From positions 1 through 64,000 of IMG/VR virus record IMGVR_UViG_3300027728_000006: a stretch of 64,000 nt of DNA; one strand, written 5' to 3'. This document shows positions 3,241-25,151 of the stretch, one piece after another. Below the pieces are notes generated by a model that did not search any database, was not told the DNA's origin, and worked only from the letters and a program-made list of their open reading frames with translations. The stretch is from a virus. Both the position numbers and the translations under genes were made by a program. The stretch's first letter is position 1. The number at the start of each line of letters is the position of its first letter.

Positions 3241-4071
3241 TTACTGTATAAAATGGTTATATAATTTCTGATCCCAATATTTCCGTTCTTTGAATTTTAC
3301 CTGAGCCTCTGCTGAGAGTTCTTCAAATTTTATTTTTTTATATGTATTTTCATTTTTTTTGTTTGCAAGCGCTTCTTTATCAAAAGAGTCCGAGTTAAAG
3401 CATTCTAACAATATTTTTTTAATTGCTTTTTCCGTATCCTTGCTATCGTATATATTGAGTGACTTAAGAAACTCACAGGCTTTATCGAAGTCTTCTTTTG
3501 TTAATTCCCTTCCCCGTGGCGGGATATCTAATGAATTTCTAATCAACCAGCTATCTTGTAATTGCAATGACATTACGTGTTCTTCAAAAGAAGATGATTT
3601 AAATATTCCATGAGTGCGTTCATGCTTTGATTTTTCGGAAGTAAGGTAATGATAAAGGGATTGCTCTCTAGAAAATGGATCTCTTAATATTATGAATTTA
3701 TACAAATTAGATTTATTCAAAACGTTGAAAAGGGGCTTTAGCAATGTATCAGTAAGCCTAAAGCCATCTGGTTTAATAAATACTGAATGTATAGATAATT
3801 TTTGTAAAATATCTTCTGTTAAATCATCGATGCTCAGATTCCAAATTATTTTGCCATCGTTTAAAGACGTAAATTTATCACACTGATTTAAAAAATTCAA
3901 ATCATCAAATGCAATAAATTTTGCAATATGCCTTTTTGATTCTGACAAAACTCTAATTATACGAGTTTTATTTTGACTTAATTTTCTGGCTTCATTGAGA
4001 AAACATTGAAACACGTAGGTTCCGGAATTTTTCGGAATGTGATAAAATACTGGGATGGTATTGATTTTCAT
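3241..4071 (-). CDS. Sulfotransferase-family protein
   Basis: This 276-residue protein begins with FYHIPKNSGTYV, the loop that binds the 5'-phosphosulfate end of PAPS in sulfotransferases. Near residue 128 it has ILRDPFSREQSLYHY, matching the 3'-phosphate motif (RDP..R..S). The expected reaction is transfer of sulfate from PAPS to a sugar or other hydroxyl, probably in the host cytoplasm. It is a clear paralogue of 10204-11052 (shared FYHIPKN.GTYV, RDPFSR.QSLY.Y, DSWLIRN, KKIKFEELS), and the two sit at opposite ends of the glycan island. The acceptor cannot be told. Confidence 0.82.
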   Translation of the reverse strand: MKINTIPVFYHIPKNSGTYVFQCFLNEARKLSQNKTRIIRVLSESKRHIAKFIAFDDLNFLNQCDKFTSLNDGKIIWNLSIDDLTEDILQKLSIHSVFIKPDGFRLTDTLLKPLFNVLNKSNLYKFIILRDPFSREQSLYHYLTSEKSKHERTHGIFKSSSFEEHVMSLQLQDSWLIRNSLDIPPRGRELTKEDFDKACEFLKSLNIYDSKDTEKAIKKILLECFNSDSFDKEALANKKNENTYKKIKFEELSAEAQVKFKERKYWDQKLYNHFIQ

Positions 4072-4095
4072 AATTTAAATTTAATATAGCGCTAT

Positions 4096-4377
4096 CTATT
4101 CTAGTTGTTTTTGTATTAAAATGGTGATTTTTCTACAATTACCGTAACTATCGTAAAGAAACATGGAGGAATCGGAAACCTTTACTGTTTTGTTGTCCTT
4201 TTCAAAAAAATGAATAGTTTCTACCATTCTGGTTTCATCTAGTGATAAATACATGAATTCTTGATCCGGATATCCTAAGTCATAAAGTTCTGGATACATT
4301 AGGGTTCCGCTGTTCAGTTGAACGGCTGAAGCTTCCTGTATAAGCTCAAAAGCCTCTTCAATAGATACAGTTTTCAT
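4096..4377 (-). CDS. Hypothetical protein
   Basis: A 93-residue acidic protein from ATG 4375-4377, ending in TAG. It has no membrane segment and no motif I recognise. It lies alone between a sulfotransferase and a glycosyltransferase and could be a small island gene or an unrelated phage gene. Confidence 0.6.
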   Translation of the reverse strand: MKTVSIEEAFELIQEASAVQLNSGTLMYPELYDLGYPDQEFMYLSLDETRMVETIHFFEKDNKTVKVSDSSMFLYDSYGNCRKITILIQKQLE

Positions 4378-4437
4378 AAATTTTTATCAAGTTCTTGATA
4401 TTTTAAGTGAAAACTTTAACACAAACTTGTAATGTTG

Positions 4438-5349
4438 TCAATAGTTTTTATCTCCAGTTAATAAACTTCGAAAGTTCCCCACTAGAAACTTGGATTTTTC
4501 TTTTTGCCAATCTACATGTTTATACTTGTTCTTGTATGCTTCGTTTAAGAAGTCTTCCGTTAAGTCGTCCCACTTATCTACTATTAAAAGCGGTAAATTG
4601 TAAATGTCTCTTAGTTCTCTGTGCGCGATATAATTAGTTACTACGGGTACTGTTTCGGATAGAATAGACTCGCATATCTTAGGAGTCTGAATTCCATTCC
4701 CTAATGGGCATGCAAAGAATTTATAATCACTCAGCTTTTCAAAATAATCTAACGGATCACAAAACATATTATCCATGAATTGAGAGCTACGCGTGAACTC
4801 TGCTAGCAATCCTCTGTCTTGAACTGTTTTGGTTACTGAAGGCCATCTACTACCAAAAGCAGAACCAATTAGTCTGGTTTTAGTTTTTGGTTTGTTTATT
4901 TGGTGTAGTATTTGATCTCCTCCACATCTTAACATATAAGCCATAATCGTACCCATAGGTATGGTGGTTACCCAATCACATTCTATGTCTTTTGCTTCAT
5001 AATAAATATGTTTAAATAGATGTTTAACTTCTTTTAAATATTCAATATTTTTACTTAAATGTATATCATCTCCAGCGCACACAAGACTATCAAATTCGCC
5101 TGGATGATTCGTAAGAATGGTTTTTATCCTACGGAGTCGGGCAACATCACAATAAACATTATTTGTCGTAAAGTCAGTATTAACATTTATTTGTTGATGA
5201 ATTATACTAATATTAAAGTTTTTAAACACGAGCGGTATTATTAATAAGTGTTTTTCAATTTCTTGCTGTGATAATAAATTTGACTTAAACCATGTTAAAA
5301 AACGCGGATCATATCTAAAGTTAAGAATATCGTGAATAGAATTAATCAT
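4438..5349 (-). CDS. Exostosin-like glycosyltransferase (GT47-type)
   Basis: A 303-residue protein. Residues about 212-240 (YKFFACPLGNGIQTPKICES, then ILSETVPVV) match the nucleotide-sugar binding region of exostosin/GT47-like GT-B enzymes, whose usual form is F.LCPRG....RL.EAL..G.IPVV. The N-terminal half (with FDSLVCAGDDIHLS) would be the acceptor domain. Likely role: adding a sugar to a polysaccharide or virion glycan in the same island as the sulfotransferases. The exact sugar cannot be inferred. Confidence 0.7.
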   Translation of the reverse strand: MINSIHDILNFRYDPRFLTWFKSNLLSQQEIEKHLLIIPLVFKNFNISIIHQQINVNTDFTTNNVYCDVARLRRIKTILTNHPGEFDSLVCAGDDIHLSKNIEYLKEVKHLFKHIYYEAKDIECDWVTTIPMGTIMAYMLRCGGDQILHQINKPKTKTRLIGSAFGSRWPSVTKTVQDRGLLAEFTRSSQFMDNMFCDPLDYFEKLSDYKFFACPLGNGIQTPKICESILSETVPVVTNYIAHRELRDIYNLPLLIVDKWDDLTEDFLNEAYKNKYKHVDWQKEKSKFLVGNFRSLLTGDKNY

Positions 5350-5412
5350 TATTTATTACTTGTATGTTTTTCTTTGTATGGTTTAGCAATTCTAAATTTA
5401 TACTAACGTTTT

Positions 5413-6150
5413 TTATATAAATTGATTTAAAACCTCAAGCATTTTTTCTACTTTTTTATCTGCTATGCCTTCAGATCTGTAACATCCAGCAATATGAACT
5501 ATAGAAGACTCCTCCAGATTTATTAAATTTATTTCACTCCACATATTTCGCCGTTGTATTCCATATAAATGCACATATTTTGACAAAGTCGGAGTTAATA
5601 AATTTTTATCACACGCTAAAAACTCATTAAAGAAAGGTTGCTCGGATGATTTTATACCTTTAAATCTTTTAAATCTTTCTATATATTTTAGTAAATCTTC
5701 TAATGCTAATTTTTGATTTTTATTGAAACCGAATGTGCCAGCGTTAAACGCGGGTCCTTCCACGCATTGTTTTTCAAAAAGTCTAAAAAATTTAGGCATG
5801 ATTCTATCTTTCTCATTGATGCTGAATCTCTCTCTTACTCCGTGAATAACATCTTTATTACTATTAATAGTATCAAAAATATTACTTAACGGCTTTATTG
5901 CGAATGCGTCCGAGTCTAAATATAAAAAATTATCATAATGGTGAAACGACTTCCACTTCACTATGCTATATTTAGCTGTATAAAATGGGTCGAATTCTGG
6001 ACAAATAAATGACTCTACATCAAGACCAAAATCCACTGGCGTTATGCAGCAAACGTGTATTTCGGGGTTATATTTTCTCAAAAGTTTCAAATTATGCTTA
6101 AAGCATTCTAAATAAGACTCATCGAATGCGTAATATACAAGGTTTTTCAT
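5413..6150 (-). CDS. Glycosyltransferase, GT8-like
   Basis: A 245-residue GT-A protein. FLYLDSDAFAIKPL (about residues 76-89) is the metal-binding DxD motif. GPAFNAGTFGFN (about 132-143) and SSIVHIAG near the end match GT8-type positions (FNAG, and a late H..G). Expected activity is transfer from a nucleotide sugar to an acceptor with Mn or Mg. Start at ATG 6148-6150. The sugar and acceptor are unknown. Confidence 0.75.
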   Translation of the reverse strand: MKNLVYYAFDESYLECFKHNLKLLRKYNPEIHVCCITPVDFGLDVESFICPEFDPFYTAKYSIVKWKSFHHYDNFLYLDSDAFAIKPLSNIFDTINSNKDVIHGVRERFSINEKDRIMPKFFRLFEKQCVEGPAFNAGTFGFNKNQKLALEDLLKYIERFKRFKGIKSSEQPFFNEFLACDKNLLTPTLSKYVHLYGIQRRNMWSEINLINLEESSIVHIAGCYRSEGIADKKVEKMLEVLNQFI

Positions 6151-6199
6151 AAGATCATATAATTTCCTTTTAATTCAGTTGTTAATTCATTCTTCATAT

Positions 6200-6817
6200 T
6201 TATTCCTTACTGTAATTATACGTCAAAAAATCTTTATCATAAAGTTTGTTTACAAGAATTTTAGCTTCTAAACTCAAAGAATGCCCATGTGGGCTATGAC
6301 CAAATTTTCCCAACTTTTTTTCTCTCAATCCGAGCGTATTGCATATATTTTTAAAATCTTCTTCTAACGTTTCAAATTTTCCAATATAATCAATTGGTTC
6401 GTCTAGTATGCTTCCATATACGCAATTTTCTCTGTGTGTTTCATTCTCGACTTCTTCCCTTTTATAAAATCGGCAATCATGCTCTATTAAAATAGGGGTT
6501 CCGAATAATTTTTTATACTCATTTATATGTTGATCCGTAATTATACCAGCGAACGGAACGGCATCGCCATAGTAAATTTTACGCATTTTATCAAAAGTGG
6601 TCATGCTCAGCATTCTTGAATATGGATCGCGGACAAATGAAAATTTAAAATAGTCGTTCCAATATTCAGAATAAAGTTTCTTAGCTTGACTAGCAATCAA
6701 ATGCTTTGTTTTCCTGTCAACATTCCACCAGTCGTCCCCAATTAATGCTCGCTCAATACTGGACCCTGCTGTTCGAGGGATATGAATAAATATGCATTTT
6801 AGTTCGTGCGAGATCAT
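6200..6817 (-). CDS. Sulfotransferase-family protein
   Basis: About 205 residues from MISHELKCIFIHIPRTAGSS. HIPRTAGSS is the 5'-phosphosulfate loop and SFVRDPYSRMLSM (about residue 61) is the 3'-phosphate motif, as in the Sulfotransfer_2 group that modifies carbohydrates. I chose the ATG at 6815-6817 because it puts the PAPS loop at the usual distance from the N-terminus and avoids overlap with the upstream gene. The acceptor is unknown; the neighbours suggest a glycan. Confidence 0.8.
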   Translation of the reverse strand: MISHELKCIFIHIPRTAGSSIERALIGDDWWNVDRKTKHLIASQAKKLYSEYWNDYFKFSFVRDPYSRMLSMTTFDKMRKIYYGDAVPFAGIITDQHINEYKKLFGTPILIEHDCRFYKREEVENETHRENCVYGSILDEPIDYIGKFETLEEDFKNICNTLGLREKKLGKFGHSPHGHSLSLEAKILVNKLYDKDFLTYNYSKE

Positions 6818-6824
6818 AATATTA

Positions 6825-7523
6825 TTAAAATTCAATTGGCGTCCACTCGTCAAACACAAATATATCTCCGTGCCATCGGGGTCCGCCTTTAGGATAAAAA
6901 ACGCTTTTTGAATGACTTAAAAAACCCATCCACCAACTAAACGTTCCCTTACTTAGAACTAAATTACCAAAATCTTTTGCAAAATTTATAGTTTCTACTG
7001 GCTCATTTTCATACAAGGTTAAATTGAATTTATTAATCAAGTGCGTTATGATTTCGTTAGAAGGGTCGTCGCTACTAATATATCCTTTTTTGAATTTAGA
7101 TTGTTCGATAGCTTGAACATAATAAGCAAGACTGGGAACTCTATTGTTTGGGACGCAATCTCCCAATCTAACATGAATAAATAAATCATCTTTGTGTTGT
7201 TGATCATATTGTAAATCGAATTGATTTAACATTTCTTGTTTGTATTGTAAAATAAAGTTTTTGTTTTGACAGCTATAATTTAAATACAAACCATGATCAA
7301 TACTTTGTTTACTTAAGATTTTGTTAAAGTTTATTCCAGTAACTGTAACTGTGTTTTCAAATATTTGAGTTCCTTGCTCGTAAAATCTGGGCTGTAATAT
7401 TTGCATTTTTTCAAGTTTTGCATATTTTTCAACTTTAATGTCGAACTTTTTTGACATTATGCTGGCCGCACAATTTCTAAACATTGCATTTCCTAACCTG
7501 CCTTGGTCTTTAATTGTAATCAT
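6825..7523 (-). CDS. GT11-like alpha-1,2-fucosyltransferase
   Basis: A 232-residue protein with the three regions of family GT11: GRLGNAMFRNCAAS at residues about 8-21 (usual GLGNQMFQYA), LFIHVRLGDC at about 114-123 (the HxRxGD GDP-fucose motif), and LSKGTFSWWMGFLS near 190 (usual S.STFSWW). Expected reaction: fucose from GDP-fucose to a hydroxyl. It is somewhat shorter than typical members (about 280-300). A GDP-mannose 4,6-dehydratase, which makes the GDP-fucose precursor, lies at 47752-48885. Confidence 0.8.
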   Translation of the reverse strand: MITIKDQGRLGNAMFRNCAASIMSKKFDIKVEKYAKLEKMQILQPRFYEQGTQIFENTVTVTGINFNKILSKQSIDHGLYLNYSCQNKNFILQYKQEMLNQFDLQYDQQHKDDLFIHVRLGDCVPNNRVPSLAYYVQAIEQSKFKKGYISSDDPSNEIITHLINKFNLTLYENEPVETINFAKDFGNLVLSKGTFSWWMGFLSHSKSVFYPKGGPRWHGDIFVFDEWTPIEF

Positions 7524-8452
7524 TTTAATTTTAAAATCTCCCTGAGTCTACACAAGTCTACACTTGATTCTCTTCGGTTTATTAGTTTTATAATTTGGGA
7601 TTCTATTGTTTCATTAGATATCCACGCCAAATCAGATGCTAATTTTTGAGTTATCCAGTTAGCTTTTAAATATTGATACACATTTTCCGCATTACCTCTG
7701 TAAAGAACAGCCCAAAGACCACAATTTCCGGAGTAGGTTATTATATGTTTAGTTTTTGACATAATAATAATAGCAGCTAAAAAATAACAAGCGTGTTGTT
7801 TCCTTTCATGTCTTGGCAGAGAATGATGAACAGATGACTTCGGATCATGATTTATCATAGACAATTCATCAAACCAAAAACTATTTGGAAACCTCTGTTT
7901 AAATGCTTCTGCAAATTCAAGCTCGTCTGTTTGTATTAAGAATTTTATATGTGGATTCTTTTGTAGGATTTCTTCAGTCTTATTAAAGAATTGTTCATAC
8001 TCGGCTAATCCGGTTTCACTTGCTTTGTCATTTCCTCTATAATAAACGGAACATATATTATCGTAATCTAGTTTATATTTTTTTTCTAGTGTTTCTATAA
8101 TATTTCTTATTGTAATGCTAGGGGAAAAAAATGCTTTTATTAATGGCACAACGTTTTTAAAATCAATATTTTTGTATTTTTGATATTGCCGAGGAAGGAA
8201 ATAATTAATTTTCTCTACTGTTGATGCAATAGCTGTTTGCTCAAAAAAATATTTTGTTAAGTCGTCTACTGTATCGTCAACTTCTTCTTTGTAATTTCTA
8301 AATTGCGCTGAAGAATCTACGGTTCGAGGCAACTCGTTATTTTTATTAATAAAATTAATAATTTGTTTCAGTCTAACCGAGCAATTAGAAAAAAAACCAG
8401 CTGTTTTACAATGGCTTGTTTTTAATATTAAGTTTTTATTATCAAAAATCAT
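7520..8452 (-). CDS. Fucosyltransferase-like glycosyltransferase
   Basis: A 310-residue protein. YYRGNDK (about residue 138) resembles the HxRxGD-type GDP-fucose pocket, and HIITYSGNCGLWAVLYRGN (about 237-255) matches the C-terminal S.xS..W region of GT-B fucosyltransferases. The N-terminal FFSNCSVRLKQIINFIN is a compact Rossmann-like start. It overlaps the next gene by four bases. Fucosyl transfer is inferred from motif resemblance only; another deoxyhexose is possible. Confidence 0.55.
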   Translation of the reverse strand: MIFDNKNLILKTSHCKTAGFFSNCSVRLKQIINFINKNNELPRTVDSSAQFRNYKEEVDDTVDDLTKYFFEQTAIASTVEKINYFLPRQYQKYKNIDFKNVVPLIKAFFSPSITIRNIIETLEKKYKLDYDNICSVYYRGNDKASETGLAEYEQFFNKTEEILQKNPHIKFLIQTDELEFAEAFKQRFPNSFWFDELSMINHDPKSSVHHSLPRHERKQHACYFLAAIIIMSKTKHIITYSGNCGLWAVLYRGNAENVYQYLKANWITQKLASDLAWISNETIESQIIKLINRRESSVDLCRLREILKLK

Positions 8453-8457
8453 TAAAT

Positions 8458-9498
8458 TTATTTTAATGGCAATATCTTTTTTAATTCCGCTACATCAATA
8501 GTGCAATCGATTTTTTTCAGCATATGTATTGTTTTTTTAGTTTTTTCCTGAAGATCAGGCTCATCAGCAATTTCTTTTAGCACTTCTGTAGGCAGAATGC
8601 AAGGAATTATATAATATTCAGCAAAAACTTCGATTGCTCCTGCAAAAAGTCTGCTAAAGGTCTTTTTTTTAGTGGGGCAAAACTCTATAACTTTTGGTTT
8701 TTTCGCGGGATCTAAAAAAATTAAATTACTCATAACTCCTCCGTGTAGACCTACTAGAATCTCGACATTGCTGAAAATTTCATATTGTTTAGAAATGGGA
8801 ACACTGCTTCCGTCGCACTCTTCTCCGTTAAAAAAATAAAATTCCAGATTATTTTCTTCTGCATATTCTTTCAAATACTCTATAATATTATTTTCGTTTT
8901 GTTGGGTTATATTTCTACCATGACGAGCAGAGGTGCTACTTCTAGAGCAAAATAGCAAAAAATTTTTTGGCTTGTTTACTATAGGATTTTGCTTGTGAAA
9001 AATTGACTTCAAATTAGCAACATTGTTTAATTTATTAATATAAGATGTGGGGCAATGATTCACTATCTCTAATTTATCAAAATTCAACAAATATTTTTCT
9101 TCCGAAGTTGAACTGATAAATTTAATTCTATCCGATAATTTTAAGTTGAAAGTTTCTATTACTTTTTCCATTAAGGGCGTCTTGGTTATTAAAATGCAGT
9201 CATATTCGGGGTAAGTGTCGTCAACTGAAAAAATTTCTGAAAAAACTTCTGAGTATATGTGTCCATACTGATTAGAATGATTTAAATTTAAAATCATCAT
9301 ATTCTTTGCATTTATGACGGTTTCTTTTATTTGTTTTATAAGCCTACTTCGAAATAAATTAGACCAAGATGGTTTTACCATCACTTCAATAAGTGAGTCT
9401 GCAACGTATGCGTAAACTGAGTCTGAAGAGGTAAAGCCTCTAAGATTTTTTTGCTCGATTTTTCTTTTTAGAATAAAATTATTAGTATTTTTTTCCAT
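8458..9498 (-). CDS. GT61-like glycosyltransferase
   Basis: About 346 residues from MEKNTNNF. The C-terminal half has LLFCSRSSTSARHGRN, then NIIEYLKEYAEENNLEF, and IFSNVEILVGLHGGVMSNLIFL, the hallmark order of GT61 (R....R.N..E..., then ...L.G.HGA...N..F). An upstream TTG extends the frame by four codons, but the ATG at 9496-9498 is the better start. GT61 enzymes add xylose, GlcNAc or arabinose in other systems; the specificity here is unknown. Confidence 0.75.
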   Translation of the reverse strand: MEKNTNNFILKRKIEQKNLRGFTSSDSVYAYVADSLIEVMVKPSWSNLFRSRLIKQIKETVINAKNMMILNLNHSNQYGHIYSEVFSEIFSVDDTYPEYDCILITKTPLMEKVIETFNLKLSDRIKFISSTSEEKYLLNFDKLEIVNHCPTSYINKLNNVANLKSIFHKQNPIVNKPKNFLLFCSRSSTSARHGRNITQQNENNIIEYLKEYAEENNLEFYFFNGEECDGSSVPISKQYEIFSNVEILVGLHGGVMSNLIFLDPAKKPKVIEFCPTKKKTFSRLFAGAIEVFAEYYIIPCILPTEVLKEIADEPDLQEKTKKTIHMLKKIDCTIDVAELKKILPLK

Positions 9499-9506
9499 AA
9501 CATTTT

Positions 9507-10142
9507 TCAAAATTCATATTTAAAATTACTTATGTCCCATTCGAATAATTTTCCTATAGTATTTTTTGTTTCCTCGTCGTAATAATCTGCGTAAGGGATT
9601 CTTGTTGTAAATTTTTCTATATTATTTACTTGGGGTATGCCGCAACTTAAATCAAGTTGTAATTTGTCTTTTATATTAAGAATGTCTTTTTCGATATGCT
9701 CTAATCTAATTACGTAATCTAAAAAAAACTTATTTTGAAAAAACATATATGGTATAGTAGCCACTTGAGAATTAAAATCGTTTTTATAATATTTATAAAC
9801 ATACTCTTTAAATGACATAATATTCGAATCTTGAACATATCTTGGCATTTCTTTGTCGGGTCTTTTGACTGTGTAGTAATCGTATTCTTTATACCTGGTA
9901 TGATTATAGAATGATACCGCCCTATCCCAAGGGTTTCTTATTATAGAAAACTTGAAAAAGTCTTTGATTTGAAGATTTTTTTCTGTTAATTTGTCTACAT
10001 GGATCTTTAAAGAAGCATGTTTAAAAGCGTGAATATTTGGATATTCATTTCTCAATTTAAGAAAACCTATGAGGTTTTCTATAGAGGTTCCCCCACATTT
10101 AGGTGGATGAGTGAATATAAATTTTTTATTTAAATCGTACAT
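9507..10142 (-). CDS. Sulfotransferase-family protein
   Basis: A 211-residue protein. FIFTHPPKCGGTSIE (about residues 8-22) is the PAPS 5'-phosphosulfate loop (usual h.PK.GGTS) and FSIIRNPWDRAVSFYNH (about 65-81) the 3'-phosphate motif (R.P..R..S). It lies between a GT61-like enzyme and another sulfotransferase. The fold assignment is firm; the acceptor is not, though sulfation of a carbohydrate fits the setting. Confidence 0.82.
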   Translation of the reverse strand: MYDLNKKFIFTHPPKCGGTSIENLIGFLKLRNEYPNIHAFKHASLKIHVDKLTEKNLQIKDFFKFSIIRNPWDRAVSFYNHTRYKEYDYYTVKRPDKEMPRYVQDSNIMSFKEYVYKYYKNDFNSQVATIPYMFFQNKFFLDYVIRLEHIEKDILNIKDKLQLDLSCGIPQVNNIEKFTTRIPYADYYDEETKNTIGKLFEWDISNFKYEF

Positions 10143-10203
10143 GATTAAGCTTAAAAATTGATAAATTTATTATATCATGTTTTTTTTAAATACTCCATAA
10201 TAA

Positions 10204-11052
10204 TCAACAGGATTCTTTATGCAACTTGTCATCCAAGTGAGTTCTTATTTTAAAGATTTTTTGAGCATTTGGAGACAATTCTTCAAATTTTATTTTTTTA
10301 AAATTTGTTTTGTTCTTTGTTAGGGTGTCCCAAGGTTTGAGTTCGATGGTTCTTACGTCGAAATTATAACAAATCTTGAAAGCTTCCAGAATTGCTTCGT
10401 CTGTATTTTTTATATTAAAAATATTAAAAGATTTTAAAACGTCAATGGTTTCATCGTAGTGAGATTCGCTTAATTGTATGTCGTCGCTTACGTTTGCAAT
10501 ATTTCTGATCAGCCAACTGTCTTCCGCTTGCTCCGATAATAAATACTCTTCAAGGGTGTTGAATTCAATTGAGTGGTGAGTTTTTTCATGGATTGAAGAA
10601 TCCGACGTAATATAATTATAAAGCGATTGAGCCCTTGAAAAAGGATCTCTTGATATTATAAACTGGTACAAGTCATAATTCGAAAGTAAGTCTAGTATGC
10701 TTTTAGCGCATTTAAAGCCGCGAGATTTAATAATAACTCCAAATAAAAAAACATTTTCGAATAAATCTTTTGGTAGATTATTAATATCTATATCCCATTC
10801 TACGGTGGAATGTTTTTTATCAAACACTGTAAGAGATTCGCAATAATAATTTGGGTCTCCAACTAACAGTTGTGCTATCGTAAAGCCTGCCTTAGTAATG
10901 TATAAGCACTTTATAGTGTCCTGTCCTGGGAGGCGAATTTTAAGCCAATTTGTATATTTTCGCCTATAATAACGAAATGCAATCAACATCCAATCTGATA
11001 CATAAGTGCCGGCGTTTTTTGGTATGTGATAAAAAACTGGAATTTTATTCAT
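10204..11052 (-). CDS. Sulfotransferase-family protein, paralogue of 3241-4071
   Basis: A 282-residue protein with FYHIPKNAGTYV at residues about 7-18 and IISRDPFSRAQSLYNYI near 133, the two PAPS-binding motifs. It shares further blocks with 3241-4071 (EDSWLIRN, KKIKFEELS), so the pair arose by duplication. Its ATG lies inside the end of a 30-codon upstream frame, suggesting translational coupling. It is the first gene of the island in the direction of transcription. Confidence 0.82.
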   Translation of the reverse strand: MNKIPVFYHIPKNAGTYVSDWMLIAFRYYRRKYTNWLKIRLPGQDTIKCLYITKAGFTIAQLLVGDPNYYCESLTVFDKKHSTVEWDIDINNLPKDLFENVFLFGVIIKSRGFKCAKSILDLLSNYDLYQFIISRDPFSRAQSLYNYITSDSSIHEKTHHSIEFNTLEEYLLSEQAEDSWLIRNIANVSDDIQLSESHYDETIDVLKSFNIFNIKNTDEAILEAFKICYNFDVRTIELKPWDTLTKNKTNFKKIKFEELSPNAQKIFKIRTHLDDKLHKESC

Positions 11053-18515: not shown

Positions 18516-18728
18516 TTATCGATAAATTAACAATACTTTAGTTTTAAATAATTCTGCTTCTCTGCAATCGTCATACTCTCCGTAATACCATTCTCTCTTA
18601 AATGGACCACATACTTCTATTTGCTTTGTTCCTACTGGTAATGCATAACCCCCTTCGTATCCGTTAACAAGGATAAGGGTTTCTGGATCTAGTTTTTCTA
18701 GAATTTCAATTAGTTCTTTAGCTTTCAT
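18516..18728 (-). CDS. Hypothetical protein
   Basis: A 70-residue protein starting MKAKELIEILEKLDPET, followed by LILVNGYEGGYALPVG. This start is common in small phage proteins (a helix, then NP/DPET and a short beta domain), for which no function is known. Its ATG overlaps the end of the RNA ligase gene by 11 bases. Confidence 0.65.
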   Translation of the reverse strand: MKAKELIEILEKLDPETLILVNGYEGGYALPVGTKQIEVCGPFKREWYYGEYDDCREAELFKTKVLLIYR

Positions 18729-19803
18729 ATTTTTGATTTATTAGTTTGGTCCATTGTTCTTTGTTGATTATTTTACCATCTAAAACGGAAAATACAAATG
18801 AAGAATTTTCCTTAAAGTTTCTTTTGATCATTATTGCTTGGTCTTTTCTTGTTTCCACTTTTCTTATATCATGCACTACTTCTAGGATATGGTCAATATA
18901 TTTTTTTGCTTTTTCTCCTGCTTCACAAATTTTTTCTAGTTCGTCCTTTAATTGAACCGCTATCTCATAATCAAATTCAGTTTCAATTATTTTGTAAAAA
19001 ACATTATAACAAGGCATCTCTTTTTCGATATAAAATTCTATTAAATTTTTAGTAGAACTGAGTTGCGACTTAACTCGATGACAAAATAAATACCAATCCG
19101 ACTTCAACTTGATTCTATTCTGTCCATTATTGTAAGAAATCACAATGCCTTCTTCGCCTTTCCAATTCTTAATGTATTCGGATATTTTAGATAGATCCCC
19201 GATGTCATTAAACACATAAGTTTTTGGAGTGGGTATGTTCCCTATCTCTCTCCAGATCTCTGTTAAATCTCCAGAAGAAACAATAGTCATGTCGTTTTTG
19301 TTTATCGCCCCGAGTAGATAAAATTCTACATCTTTTGGTCTAATGACTATTACATTATTGGGAGTAACAATTTCAAACAACAAGCTGAGATGTTGGTTTT
19401 CTTTTAAGAAATCTGCTGCCTTTGGATATTTTTGAGGAAGCAATTCGAAATCTTTTGCGTTTTTCTGAGTTGAATAAGAAACCGCTCCTCTGGTTCTCAT
19501 TGAGAATTGGCTATTTACATGGTCACAAATAATCAAAGAGCCGTCTTTTTTCTCATCGCATTTCCAATCGCTAAAATTTTCTGGATTAGGATAGCAGTTT
19601 ATTTTTTCACCATGATTGAAAAACTTAGGCCAACCTGAAGACAACACGTTTCTATCTTTATCAGTAATGAGAGAACGATAGAATAAATTGTTACTATTCC
19701 ACTTCGCGTCAATTTTTGGAGTTATCAAATAACAATCTAAATCACAAAATTTATTTTCAACGATATTGAAATATTCCTCTTCTGCTGGAAGACTTACCTT
19801 CAT
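18718..19803 (-). CDS. rnlA: RNA ligase, T4 Rnl1-like
   Basis: A 361-residue member of the covalent nucleotidyltransferases. CDEKKDGSLIICDH (about residues 82-95) contains motif I (KxDG), so the nucleotidylated lysine is probably K85. LLFEIVTPNNVIVI (about 141-154) is motif III/IIIa, GEEGIVISY (about 215-223) motif IV and RIKLKSDWY (about 229-237) motif V. The helical C-terminal third matches the Rnl1 specificity domain. Rnl1 joins 3'-OH and 5'-PO4 RNA ends and repairs cleaved tRNAs. It is followed by a small gene and preceded by a phosphoesterase. Confidence 0.85.
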   Translation of the reverse strand: MKVSLPAEEEYFNIVENKFCDLDCYLITPKIDAKWNSNNLFYRSLITDKDRNVLSSGWPKFFNHGEKINCYPNPENFSDWKCDEKKDGSLIICDHVNSQFSMRTRGAVSYSTQKNAKDFELLPQKYPKAADFLKENQHLSLLFEIVTPNNVIVIRPKDVEFYLLGAINKNDMTIVSSGDLTEIWREIGNIPTPKTYVFNDIGDLSKISEYIKNWKGEEGIVISYNNGQNRIKLKSDWYLFCHRVKSQLSSTKNLIEFYIEKEMPCYNVFYKIIETEFDYEIAVQLKDELEKICEAGEKAKKYIDHILEVVHDIRKVETRKDQAIMIKRNFKENSSFVFSVLDGKIINKEQWTKLINQKYES

Positions 19804-21821: not shown

Positions 21822-22260
21822 TGGAGGCGAGAGGGGTCGAACCTCTGTCTTTATAATATCATCTAAAAGGTGCTACATGCTTTAATGAATTTGACATTTT
21901 TTGACTAAAGGCTGTCTTGGCTCATTCGCCATCTTTTAAAGTCTGCCTACACGAGCGCAAGGTCTCGTATTACCTCTGTATAAGTTTTTCTATGATCTCT
22001 AACAGTTCATCAAAACCTCTGCAATTCAAAACGGATTTAGAGGATTACCGTTAGGCTCTTAGGCGGCGAGAGCGTAGGACTCTTCTTCAAAGCCGGCGAG
22101 AAACTCGTCGGCATTGTTGAATATGTATTCAGCTTCGGCTAAAAGATCAGAAGTATTGTCTTCTGCATTTAGTTTTTTAATCGATTTTTAAAGAGGCCAT
22201 CGATTAACCTCTACATGCACTTTTAAATCTCAATTATAAATCGAGAACCTGTACACCCCC
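21822..22260 (-). ncRNA. ssrA: tmRNA (transfer-messenger RNA)
   Basis: tmRNA rescues stalled ribosomes and tags the unfinished protein. The 5' end (GGGGGUG, from 22260) pairs with 3' CGCCUCC (21823-21829) in a 7-bp acceptor with two wobbles; the discriminator is A at 21822 and CCA is not encoded. The T arm is AGAGG-UUCGACC-CCUCU. Near the 5' end are GGUUCUCGA and AAGUGCAUGUAGAGG. Pseudoknot PK1 is formed by AGAGG/CCUCU (22208-22212 with 22192-22196) and UUAAUCGAU/AUCGAUUAA (22199-22207 with 22177-22185). The tag frame starts at GCA (22164-22166), is 35 codons (AEDNTSDL... to ...EEESYALAA) and stops at TAA (22059-22061). The ALAA end is the usual proteolysis signal. The tag is far longer than the 10 residues of Escherichia coli. 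Confidence 0.93.
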
Positions 22261-22374: not shown

Positions 22375-22560
22375 CTATATTAGTGATTTAAAGTCTTTAA
22401 TCAATTTATTAGCATCATCTTCAAGATCGCTTAGCCCGATCATAAGCTTCTTTGCCCTGCTTGTGTCTTCATGATAATGATCTAGCGTCCTATCCTTCAT
22501 TAGTTTTATTTGATCAATTATTTCAGAAACCTCAACCATTTGTGAATATGTGTCGTTCAT
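22375..22560 (-). CDS. Hypothetical helical protein
   Basis: A 61-residue protein, almost wholly helical by composition (SEIIDQIKLMKDRTLDHYHE, then LSDLEDDANKLIKDFK), compatible with a short coiled coil. Start at ATG 22558-22560, overlapping the RNA ligase stop by one base. The role is unknown. Confidence 0.6.
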   Translation of the reverse strand: MNDTYSQMVEVSEIIDQIKLMKDRTLDHYHEDTSRAKKLMIGLSDLEDDANKLIKDFKSLI

Positions 22561-23570
22561 TAATCTTTGTAGTTTCTATTAATTAATTTAAATCCAAGCG
22601 GGCGACGAGAAGAATATCCGCGAGGATAAGAGGACGGTCTTACCACTATTCCTTCTCCCTCTAATCCGCTTTGATATTTTTGTTTATCTGCCAGTTCTTG
22701 AAGTTTTTGCAATGGATTTACCCAAAGTTTTATATTGGAGTCAAGTCCTAATTTGCACACGAGCGGAACAACATCACAATGTAAAGAATTTTCGCAAAAA
22801 TCCTTCATCTCTTCATAAGTCATATACTTTTTATTTTCACTAATTTGAAATACAAAAATCTTAACATCTTCCAGTTTAAGCTGATTGCGCTGGATTCCAT
22901 TACCACAAAGTTCGCCCTGGATTGTTCCCGTCCAATTTTCTGGAATTGTAAGTTTTTTTGCCGCTTTCCAGAAGGTATTATTTTCAGTTTCTTTTTTGGA
23001 AAGATTTCTCGTACAAACTTGTGTAAGAGCGCCGTCTTCAATAATTAAAGTTACAGAGCTTCCATCCAGCTTTTGCGTGACTGTAATGTGAGAATCGTGA
23101 TTAAGAACCTTTTCTACTAGACTTGGATCATTCAGCCCATTATCTTCATCTGTTTTAGATATGATGTTTGTTGGAAAATCTCCCAATGTTTCTCCAGACA
23201 AATTAGCGGGAATTTCTTTTATATATTTTGTAACGCCGAGCAATTCCGTTAAATCATATCCTTCTTCATATTCTTTGAAATTATCCGGAAATTCGCTCAG
23301 GGGAATAATTAAACCGCTGGAAAATTCTCCACGGAGTTTAATGTTTTTGATTCTAATTACTTTGTCTGGATTTTTTTGATCAACCAAGAACTCGGACCAA
23401 TTATAACGTGGGACAATGGTATCGATAGTAATAAAAACTACTTTATCACCATCTTTGTGAATTCCTTTTTTAACAATGGTTTGCCAACCTAAAATCTCTG
23501 AAATTTGTAAAGAGTCGGCGTTGAGATGGTCTTTGATATTTTTTATGATTTCAATTGATGCTAATTTCAT
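22560..23570 (-). CDS. RNA ligase, DRB0094-type (Rnl5)
   Basis: A 336-residue protein. The N-terminal 110 residues form an OB-like domain (LQISEILGWQTIVKKGIHKD, then GDKVVFITIDTIVP), found only in this subgroup, first described in Deinococcus. The ligase domain follows: TQKLDGSSVTL (about 165-175, motif I, nucleotidylated K167), TGTIQGELCGNG (motif III), LEGEGIVVRPSSYP (motif IV, about 305), and LGFKLINRNYKD (motif V) at the C-terminus. Such ligases seal nicked RNA, including 3'-OH RNA on hybrid templates. It is the second RNA ligase in 5 kb. Confidence 0.88.
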   Translation of the reverse strand: MKLASIEIIKNIKDHLNADSLQISEILGWQTIVKKGIHKDGDKVVFITIDTIVPRYNWSEFLVDQKNPDKVIRIKNIKLRGEFSSGLIIPLSEFPDNFKEYEEGYDLTELLGVTKYIKEIPANLSGETLGDFPTNIISKTDEDNGLNDPSLVEKVLNHDSHITVTQKLDGSSVTLIIEDGALTQVCTRNLSKKETENNTFWKAAKKLTIPENWTGTIQGELCGNGIQRNQLKLEDVKIFVFQISENKKYMTYEEMKDFCENSLHCDVVPLVCKLGLDSNIKLWVNPLQKLQELADKQKYQSGLEGEGIVVRPSSYPRGYSSRRPLGFKLINRNYKD

Positions 23571-24246: not shown

Positions 24247-24753
24247 TTAAGTATTTTTTGGCTTACACCATGAGTTGAAGTAATTTTGACCCCACCAAAC
24301 CAATATTTCCTCGCCCTCATCAATATCTTTTTCGGCTGTAAAAATTACTAAATCTAAATTTGGATATATTTTAAAAGAGGCGTTTTTTGTTTCGTCTGAA
24401 TCCGCTGAGTTATATACTGACCCATTGCCAAATAAGATCATTCCAGTATTACCATGAGTTTGGCAGTCTTTACATTGGCAATTATTCCAATAAGCAAACT
24501 TGATAATAGAAGAATCGTGAATGTATTTTCTTTTCCAGCTCATTGTTAGAGCATGACAATACTCTATTACTTCATTTTTTATAATTTTTTTATTCGCAAA
24601 TACGCCAAGTCCCTTCCCGAAAGATTCTCTTACACGTAAATGATCATTTGTAAATCCCTCTGCTCTTACTTTTATCCAATTTTCTTGGATACTTTTCAGA
24701 TCCGACTCGCTGTTATTTTTTTCGCTATTTTGATTGTCTTGATTTTTTTCCAT
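24247..24753 (-). CDS. SET-domain protein (possible lysine methyltransferase)
   Basis: About 168 residues from MEKNQDNQN. LRVRESFGKGLGVFANKKI (about residues 40-58) is the SET N-motif (G.G.FA), NCQCKDCQTHG is a cysteine patch, YNSADSDETKNASF replaces the usual NH..pN, and ITAEKDIDEGEEILVWWGQNYF-like positions (AEKDIDEGEEILVWWG) form the C-motif around the SAM and lysine channels. SET enzymes move a methyl group from SAM to lysine. The substrate is unknown; a host chromatin or ribosomal target, or a virion protein, is possible. The acidic N-terminal 30 residues are extra. Confidence 0.75.
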   Translation of the reverse strand: MEKNQDNQNSEKNNSESDLKSIQENWIKVRAEGFTNDHLRVRESFGKGLGVFANKKIIKNEVIEYCHALTMSWKRKYIHDSSIIKFAYWNNCQCKDCQTHGNTGMILFGNGSVYNSADSDETKNASFKIYPNLDLVIFTAEKDIDEGEEILVWWGQNYFNSWCKPKNT

Positions 24754-24761
24754 ATTTCTTA

Positions 24762-25151
24762 TTATTCCCAACAAAAAATTACATTGTTAAATTTTTCTAG
24801 TCTTCTGATTAAATTGTGTTGTATTAGTTTTTCCCATATCCTGTATTTATTAGCTAATCCAGCGCCCAACTGAGATATATAAAATGTAATATTTGGCGAA
24901 TTTTTAATTATTTTTTCCAACTTGTCCAATTCTTCAAAAAATACAGAAGAATACTCCTCCGGTTTATAGAATGACCCATCACAGTTATCTGGAAATTTTT
25001 TTGTGATAAAACCTATTGCTCTTTTGTGAAATCTTAATTTTGCCGCTCCGCCAGTTCCTCGTCTTTCCAAGTTGTCTCCAAATACAAAATACGCGTTAGA
25101 ATTAGCATCTAAAAAAGATTCTGTTACAATCAATGAACTGTACGTTGCCAT
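24762..25151 (-). CDS. Conserved protein with FGDNxxRxGxGGAA motif
   Basis: A 129-residue protein. AYFVFGDNLERRGTGGAAKLR (about residues 20-40), then AIGFITKK, is a recurring signature (FGDN..R.G.GGQA..R...GIPTK) in phage and bacterial proteins of unknown function that look related to the macro/ADP-ribose fold. The remaining half includes NITFYISQLGAGLANKY. I cannot assign a reaction. Start at ATG 25149-25151. Confidence 0.6.
   Translation of the reverse strand: MATYSSLIVTESFLDANSNAYFVFGDNLERRGTGGAAKLRFHKRAIGFITKKFPDNCDGSFYKPEEYSSVFFEELDKLEKIIKNSPNITFYISQLGAGLANKYRIWEKLIQHNLIRRLEKFNNVIFCWE

Follow-up and report, generated by a model that had tools for sequence, protein, structure and literature searches.

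A phage tmRNA family with long, conserved tags that probably carry a second signal besides the degradation ending

Tags added by tmRNA are normally about 10 residues long, with their known information near both ends; that of E. coli SsrA is AANDENYALAA. A viral tmRNA gene that appears to encode 35 residues raises two questions: whether so long a tag is really read, and what the additional residues would be for. The gene lies in IMG/VR record IMGVR_UViG_3300027728_000006, where it is the single tmRNA in 104,351 bases. We analysed the first 64,000 nucleotides of that record (the window), to which coordinates refer unless another contig is named, and compared the gene with relatives in other viral contigs. 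Its RNA features are as follows.

21822..22260, minus strand: one-piece phage tmRNA gene (ssrA-like), from ARAGORN and Rfam RF00023.
21830..21846, minus strand: T-arm of the tRNA-like domain, AGAGG UUCGACC CCUCU, from the sequence and the Rfam alignment.
22177..22212, minus strand: pseudoknot PK1, from the sequence and covariation.
22212-22208 with 22196-22192, minus strand: 5-bp stem of PK1, AGAGG / CCUCU.
22207-22199 with 22185-22177, minus strand: 9-bp stem of PK1, UUAAUCGAU / AUCGAUUAA.

ARAGORN calls a tmRNA at exactly 21822-22260 on the minus strand, and an Rfam covariance search matches the full RF00023 model to 22260-21819 of the same strand at 92.8 bits, above the gathering score of 47 bits. 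The tRNA-like domain can be read directly, with a 7-bp acceptor stem containing G3:U70, the T-arm and the GCAUGUAG region. G3:U70 is the alanine identity pair. Folding of the tmRNA strand beats all of 100 dinucleotide shuffles (z -2.9). Among 27 relatives 98.7% of PK1 cells are paired and 10 of the 11 PK1 pairs show two-sided compensatory changes, a covariation equalled by none of 500 shuffles and far better than in any slid register. The tmRNA scores above the Rfam cut-off in 24 of 26 virus records tested. Covariation in PK1 and the Rfam matches in relatives speak strongly for a working tmRNA. The initial annotation had proposed a phage-type tmRNA with acceptor, T-arm and a PK1 of 5 and 9 bp, to be checked by covariance search and folding, and both analyses agree with it.

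No SmpB gene was found in the 26 phage records tested, which may be fragments, so that host SmpB must be assumed. No SspB gene was found in the phage records tested either, and our searches returned no named phage with a relative of the tmRNA. Compared by DNA polymerase, ribonucleotide reductase and ligases, the nearest named phages are mixed.

The tRNA-like domain of the family looks modular in examples read directly from sequence. Each of three T-loops, the canonical UUCGANN (that of the window), UAUCGUAN with 8 nt, and GGCAGAA, comes with its own 5′ D-region (contigs L003, L007, L016, L022, L023 and L025; L021 and L039), and the non-canonical T-loops may merit study. In contig L034 an insertion of about 90 nt separates the tag stop codon from the P5 region.

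The reading frame of the tag was placed as follows.

22164..22166, minus strand: resume codon GCA, from the Rfam alignment, the relatives and the rule in PMC2481249.
22062..22166, minus strand: 35-codon tag frame, AEDNTSDLLAEAEYIFNNADEFLAGFEEESYALAA, from conservation.
22059..22061, minus strand: tag stop codon TAA.

Read from GCA, the predicted tag begins A-AEDNTSDLLAEAEYIFNNADEFL..., has a net charge of -10 and ends in ALAA before TAA. The RNA just 5′ of the codon is AAAAAACUAAAU, so that UAAAU directly precedes GCA, and GCA lies 12 nt past the paired bases of PK1. The E. coli resume codon is at the same 12-nt distance from PK1, and its frame is set by the A four bases 5′ of it, inside UAGUC (PMC2481249); UAAAU of the window has U and A at the same positions, -5 and -4. 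ARAGORN reports a tag of 25 residues, EAEYIFNNADEFLAGFEEESYALAA, consisting of the last 25 codons only, while the Rfam alignment sets the resume codon ten codons before the ARAGORN start. An open frame of 35 codons is unremarkable in one gene (about a 10% chance from composition), so the length had to be decided by relatives.

Relatives were collected independently of the tag in two ways, by looking next to the RNA ligase in viral contigs and by searching viral contigs for a general tmRNA 3′ pattern; a tmRNA-gene profile search yielded 36 family genes. All 25 distinct tag genes of the tag-independent collection begin at the same GCA. Their tags have 33, 34, 35 or 45 residues and their insertions and deletions are of whole codons only; across the whole family tags run from 32 to 45 residues. 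Within the first 23 codons of these 25 genes, 6, 4 and 19 columns vary at codon positions 1, 2 and 3, respectively, and pN/pS is 0.16. The other two frames are open in 4 and 0 of 61 distinct tag genes. This codon-position pattern, the low pN/pS, the whole-codon changes and the closed alternative frames together indicate that the stretch is kept for its encoded peptide, and the tag is conserved as protein along its whole length. The end segment can vary in length by one to twelve codons, and the C-terminus is LAA or a close variant in nearly all relatives. A further tag-independent pattern, for the P5 region, found 42 viral contigs, every one with a long tag (42/42); one of them, L502, has a drifted core, AESNSDILAEAESIVNNADEILASFGCEVLAA. 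No second copy of the tag exists elsewhere in the virus record, and tblastn against 50,697 phage records gave no match.

Two simpler accounts of the long frame can be judged here. The real tag might be short, ARAGORN's 25 residues or fewer, with the upstream part untranslated. Beyond the ARAGORN call itself the evidence runs the other way: the resume context, the PK1 spacing and the Rfam alignment all point to the upstream GCA, and the first ten codons are conserved as protein in the same frame. A short tag is thus contradicted by the comparison with relatives, and we consider it very unlikely. The insert might instead be kept as RNA structure rather than as a coding sequence. The strand does fold better than its shuffles, as expected of any tmRNA, but third-position variation and the rest of the codon pattern given above contradict this idea, and we regard it as extremely improbable. 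Support for a length of 35 residues comes from the Rfam alignment, from the 12 nt between PK1 and GCA, from UA at -5/-4 and from the start common to all relatives. By this comparison of sequences, the initial annotation (a GCA resume codon and an acidic frame of 35 codons ending ALAA-stop) is right on tag length where ARAGORN was wrong; the conserved alignments do not move the resume point further downstream, the outcome it had named as contrary, and in relatives the tag frame stays long and keeps its coding bias, as it had proposed to check. Among 17 family members placed by Rfam, ARAGORN missed 9, truncated 7 and called 1 correctly. Collections relying on ARAGORN will therefore under-report long tags, and the family exposes an annotation gap.

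The gene resembles E. coli SsrA and RF00023 in its tRNA-like domain, PK1, spacing and context of the resume codon and ALAA end, and differs from them in the length of the family tag (32-45 versus about 10 residues) and in an internal conserved core. The commonest tmRNA tag length is 10 residues (PMC11915505). Outside the family, 11 of 49 distinct tags in viral contigs, among the matches listed, have at least 20 residues, against 2 of 68 in prokaryote genomes, again among the matches listed, both of which look like miscalls; this comparison used one common tmRNA pattern and lengths from ARAGORN, which errs on long tags. The two 45-residue tags of the family, in L023 and L024, exceed any that we found reported, in a comparison spanning less than the full tmRNA database.

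Long tags as such were already known, from mycobacteriophages (25 residues) and Mesoplasma (27); the RNA family is known, and it is the kind of tag that is unusual. The mycobacteriophage tmRNA (Bixzunavirus, e.g. Maby2021) is likewise phage-encoded, in one piece and beside tRNA genes, with a long acidic tag, ATDTDATVTDAEIEAFFAEEAAALV. That tag has a loosely similar AExExFF stretch, although no sequence similarity above shuffles to the core of the window tag was found, and unlike the window tag it has 25 residues and ends in ALV. The Mesoplasma florum tag, AANKNEENTNEVPTFMLNAGQANYAFA, of 27 residues, is read by Lon (PMC9097571; Ge and Karzai 2009, as cited in PMC3985003). Like the family tags it is extended, clearly beyond 10-15 residues, with protease information spread along it, and so it is a precedent for an extended tag whose protease signals are spread out. 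It differs in being bacterial, from species without ClpXP, and in its AFA end; the window tag is unrelated in sequence and keeps LAA, and the AFA end of Lon-type tags was not found in the family. Phage Melnitz, as described in an excerpt of its report (PMC9004378), is also an aquatic phage carrying ssrA, and differs in having a two-piece tmRNA; the excerpt makes no mention of long tags.

Two related groups of phage tmRNAs have tags of 30-31 residues with a similar core, AKSEFDFAPSVAEADAFLKAAGFVDAELLAA (four members) and ANDQSFAMTVAEADALLNSFEFEAAEALAA (three members). Members of both score 58-84 bits in the tmRNA-gene profile search, and differences within each group are mostly at third positions. 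The stretch [AE]EA[DE]x[FIL][FL] is common to both groups and to the core of the window tag.

Other long tags were noticed along the way. L091:2422-2822 (minus strand) is a phage tmRNA whose tag of 29 residues has an internal near-repeat, ANKVVAEYSVSFETVAEYDYSFEDAVAEV; ARAGORN gives it 14 residues. Synechococcus phages S-CAM1 and S-CAM3 and two viral contigs have tags called at 21-31 residues with NNIVAFSR (L077, L127, L530 and L532), a different long-tag type on permuted tmRNAs.

What, then, might the long tag do? Its most constrained part is the following.

22098..22145, minus strand: conserved tag core, residues 8-23, LLAEAEYIFNNADEFL, predicted acidic amphipathic helix, from conservation, a helix model and the hydrophobic moment.

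A DNA pattern for EAEYI[FIY]N[NH]A matched 74 viral contigs, every match being a tmRNA tag, and gave zero matches in 84,980 prokaryote species genomes; loosening the core pattern brought in further tags together with some unrelated proteins. In an alignment of 49 distinct tags E11, A12, Y14, I15, N17 and A19 are invariant, which is partly imposed by the search pattern, since it fixed several of these residues; the unbiased estimate is therefore that from the 25-gene set. The hydrophobic moment marks residues 6-23 as an acidic amphipathic helix (p 0.04 relative to shuffles), and AlphaFold predicts a helix at residues 5-17 with pLDDT near 90, which is only suggestive for so short a peptide; as evidence for a docking role the helix prediction is weak. 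BepA protease, which came up in a search of solved structures (E 0.05 with the single sequence, 3.4 with a profile), was judged a chance match.

The central stretch hardly varies among the many related phages, and the tag therefore probably has a second signal in addition to its degradation ending. ALAA is the usual signal for ClpXP-type proteases. The LAA end of known tags is read by ClpX and ClpA (PMC3985003). Together the predicted helix and the retained LAA end favour a two-part tag, and we lean towards a functional phage tmRNA that works through host SmpB and adds a docking helix followed by an ALAA degron. In outline, the tmRNA would be charged with alanine, be bound by host SmpB and enter ribosomes stalled on broken mRNA during infection; translation would resume at GCA and add the 35-residue tag; the acidic amphipathic helix (about residues 5-23) would dock on a second partner that recognises it, a host protease or protease adaptor being the most likely candidate; and the acidic linker ending in ALAA would serve as the signal for ClpXP-type proteases.

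An ordinary degradation tag that merely happens to be long, its flexible acidic stretch aiding the grip of a ClpXP-like protease with no specific second partner, would explain the retained LAA, the acidity throughout and an end segment so tolerant of length changes. A passive linker would have no need, however, of strict E11, A12, I15, N17 and A19, and changes in the core are far rarer than silent ones; we think this account rather unlikely. Alternatively, tagged proteins, or the peptide itself, could assist takeover of the host by binding a host factor. The core is virus-specific and about as strictly conserved as the C-terminal LAA, as such a role would suggest, but a retained degron fits rapid removal of tagged proteins better, and we rate this role as unlikely. 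The initial annotation had suggested that the tag may be more than a degradation tag; the strictness of the core and its absence from the prokaryote genomes searched support this up to that point.

One specific partner could be examined. By eye, DLLAEAEYIF-NNADEFL resembles Pup (DLLDEIDDVLEENAEDFV), so that the helix might mimic Pup and send tagged proteins to the Mpa/ARC proteasome of an actinobacterial host. The likeness, noticed post hoc, consists of an acidic helix with loosely similar spacing of hydrophobic residues; it has a shuffle p of about 0.01 against M. tuberculosis Pup, and one of the 49 tags matches Pfam Pup at E 0.078. Shuffled tags, though, match other Pfam families equally well (0.06-0.12), no WhiB or Pup was found in the phages, the closest ribonucleotide reductases belong to phages of alphaproteobacteria, and the mycobacteriophage tag is unlike Pup. 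Pup is absent from all 149 genomes in the group of the genome behind L428. We found no support for Pup as a relative or mimic, the likeness not being above shuffled controls, and hold such mimicry to be highly improbable.

Among the genes around the tmRNA, two RNA ligases lie nearby.

22560..23570, minus strand: RNA ligase related to Deinococcus DRB0094 (TIGR02306 below cut-off; PF09414 and the PF21189 OB fold; phrog_968).
18718..19803, minus strand: T4 Rnl1/RnlA-like RNA ligase (phrog_562; TIGR02308 below cut-off).

The DRB0094-type ligase is the upstream same-strand neighbour, with 300 nt between its 3′ end and the tmRNA, and the Rnl1-like ligase lies about 2 kb beyond the tmRNA 3′ end. The tmRNA thus has a ligase on each side, as first described, but the two do not both adjoin it directly. 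Wherever tmRNA and ligase were both seen (29 relatives), they are on the same strand, the tmRNA mostly 0.1-4 kb downstream of the ligase, whereas 22 of 51 ligase-bearing loci have no tmRNA nearby, the contig ending at some of them. The proposed phage set for translation upkeep and RNA repair is plausible given the constant strand, but the ligase loci with no tmRNA nearby and the 26 records in which no SmpB was found weigh against it. It is a reasonable inference that the tmRNA and ligases may keep translation going after RNA cleavage, and this agrees with the proposal that the Melnitz tmRNA supports or exploits host translation (PMC9004378).

Some other genes deserve mention. In two related records (L601:1414-2082, minus strand, and L602) a ClpP-type protease subunit is encoded about 5 kb away from the tmRNA; it may act as the partner protease or be a prohead protease. 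Positions 3241-11052 of the window hold a run of genes for glycosyltransferase-like and sulfotransferase-like P-loop proteins, unusually numerous for a phage, as judged by reading the sequence, and positions 24247-24774 encode a SET-domain protein (PF00856).

The long-core tag group has been seen only in viral contigs, and its internal core is under strong protein selection. More broadly, a large group of phages may have evolved conserved docking-helix tags that direct rescued proteins to a specific partner beyond the LAA-reading protease, be it a protease, an adaptor or a takeover target; we offer this as a tentative idea. If it is true, the similarity of the core across three related groups of phage tmRNAs would make this a recurrent viral device. 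The family makes it a testable question whether a phage tmRNA only clears ribosomes or also redirects the products that it rescues.
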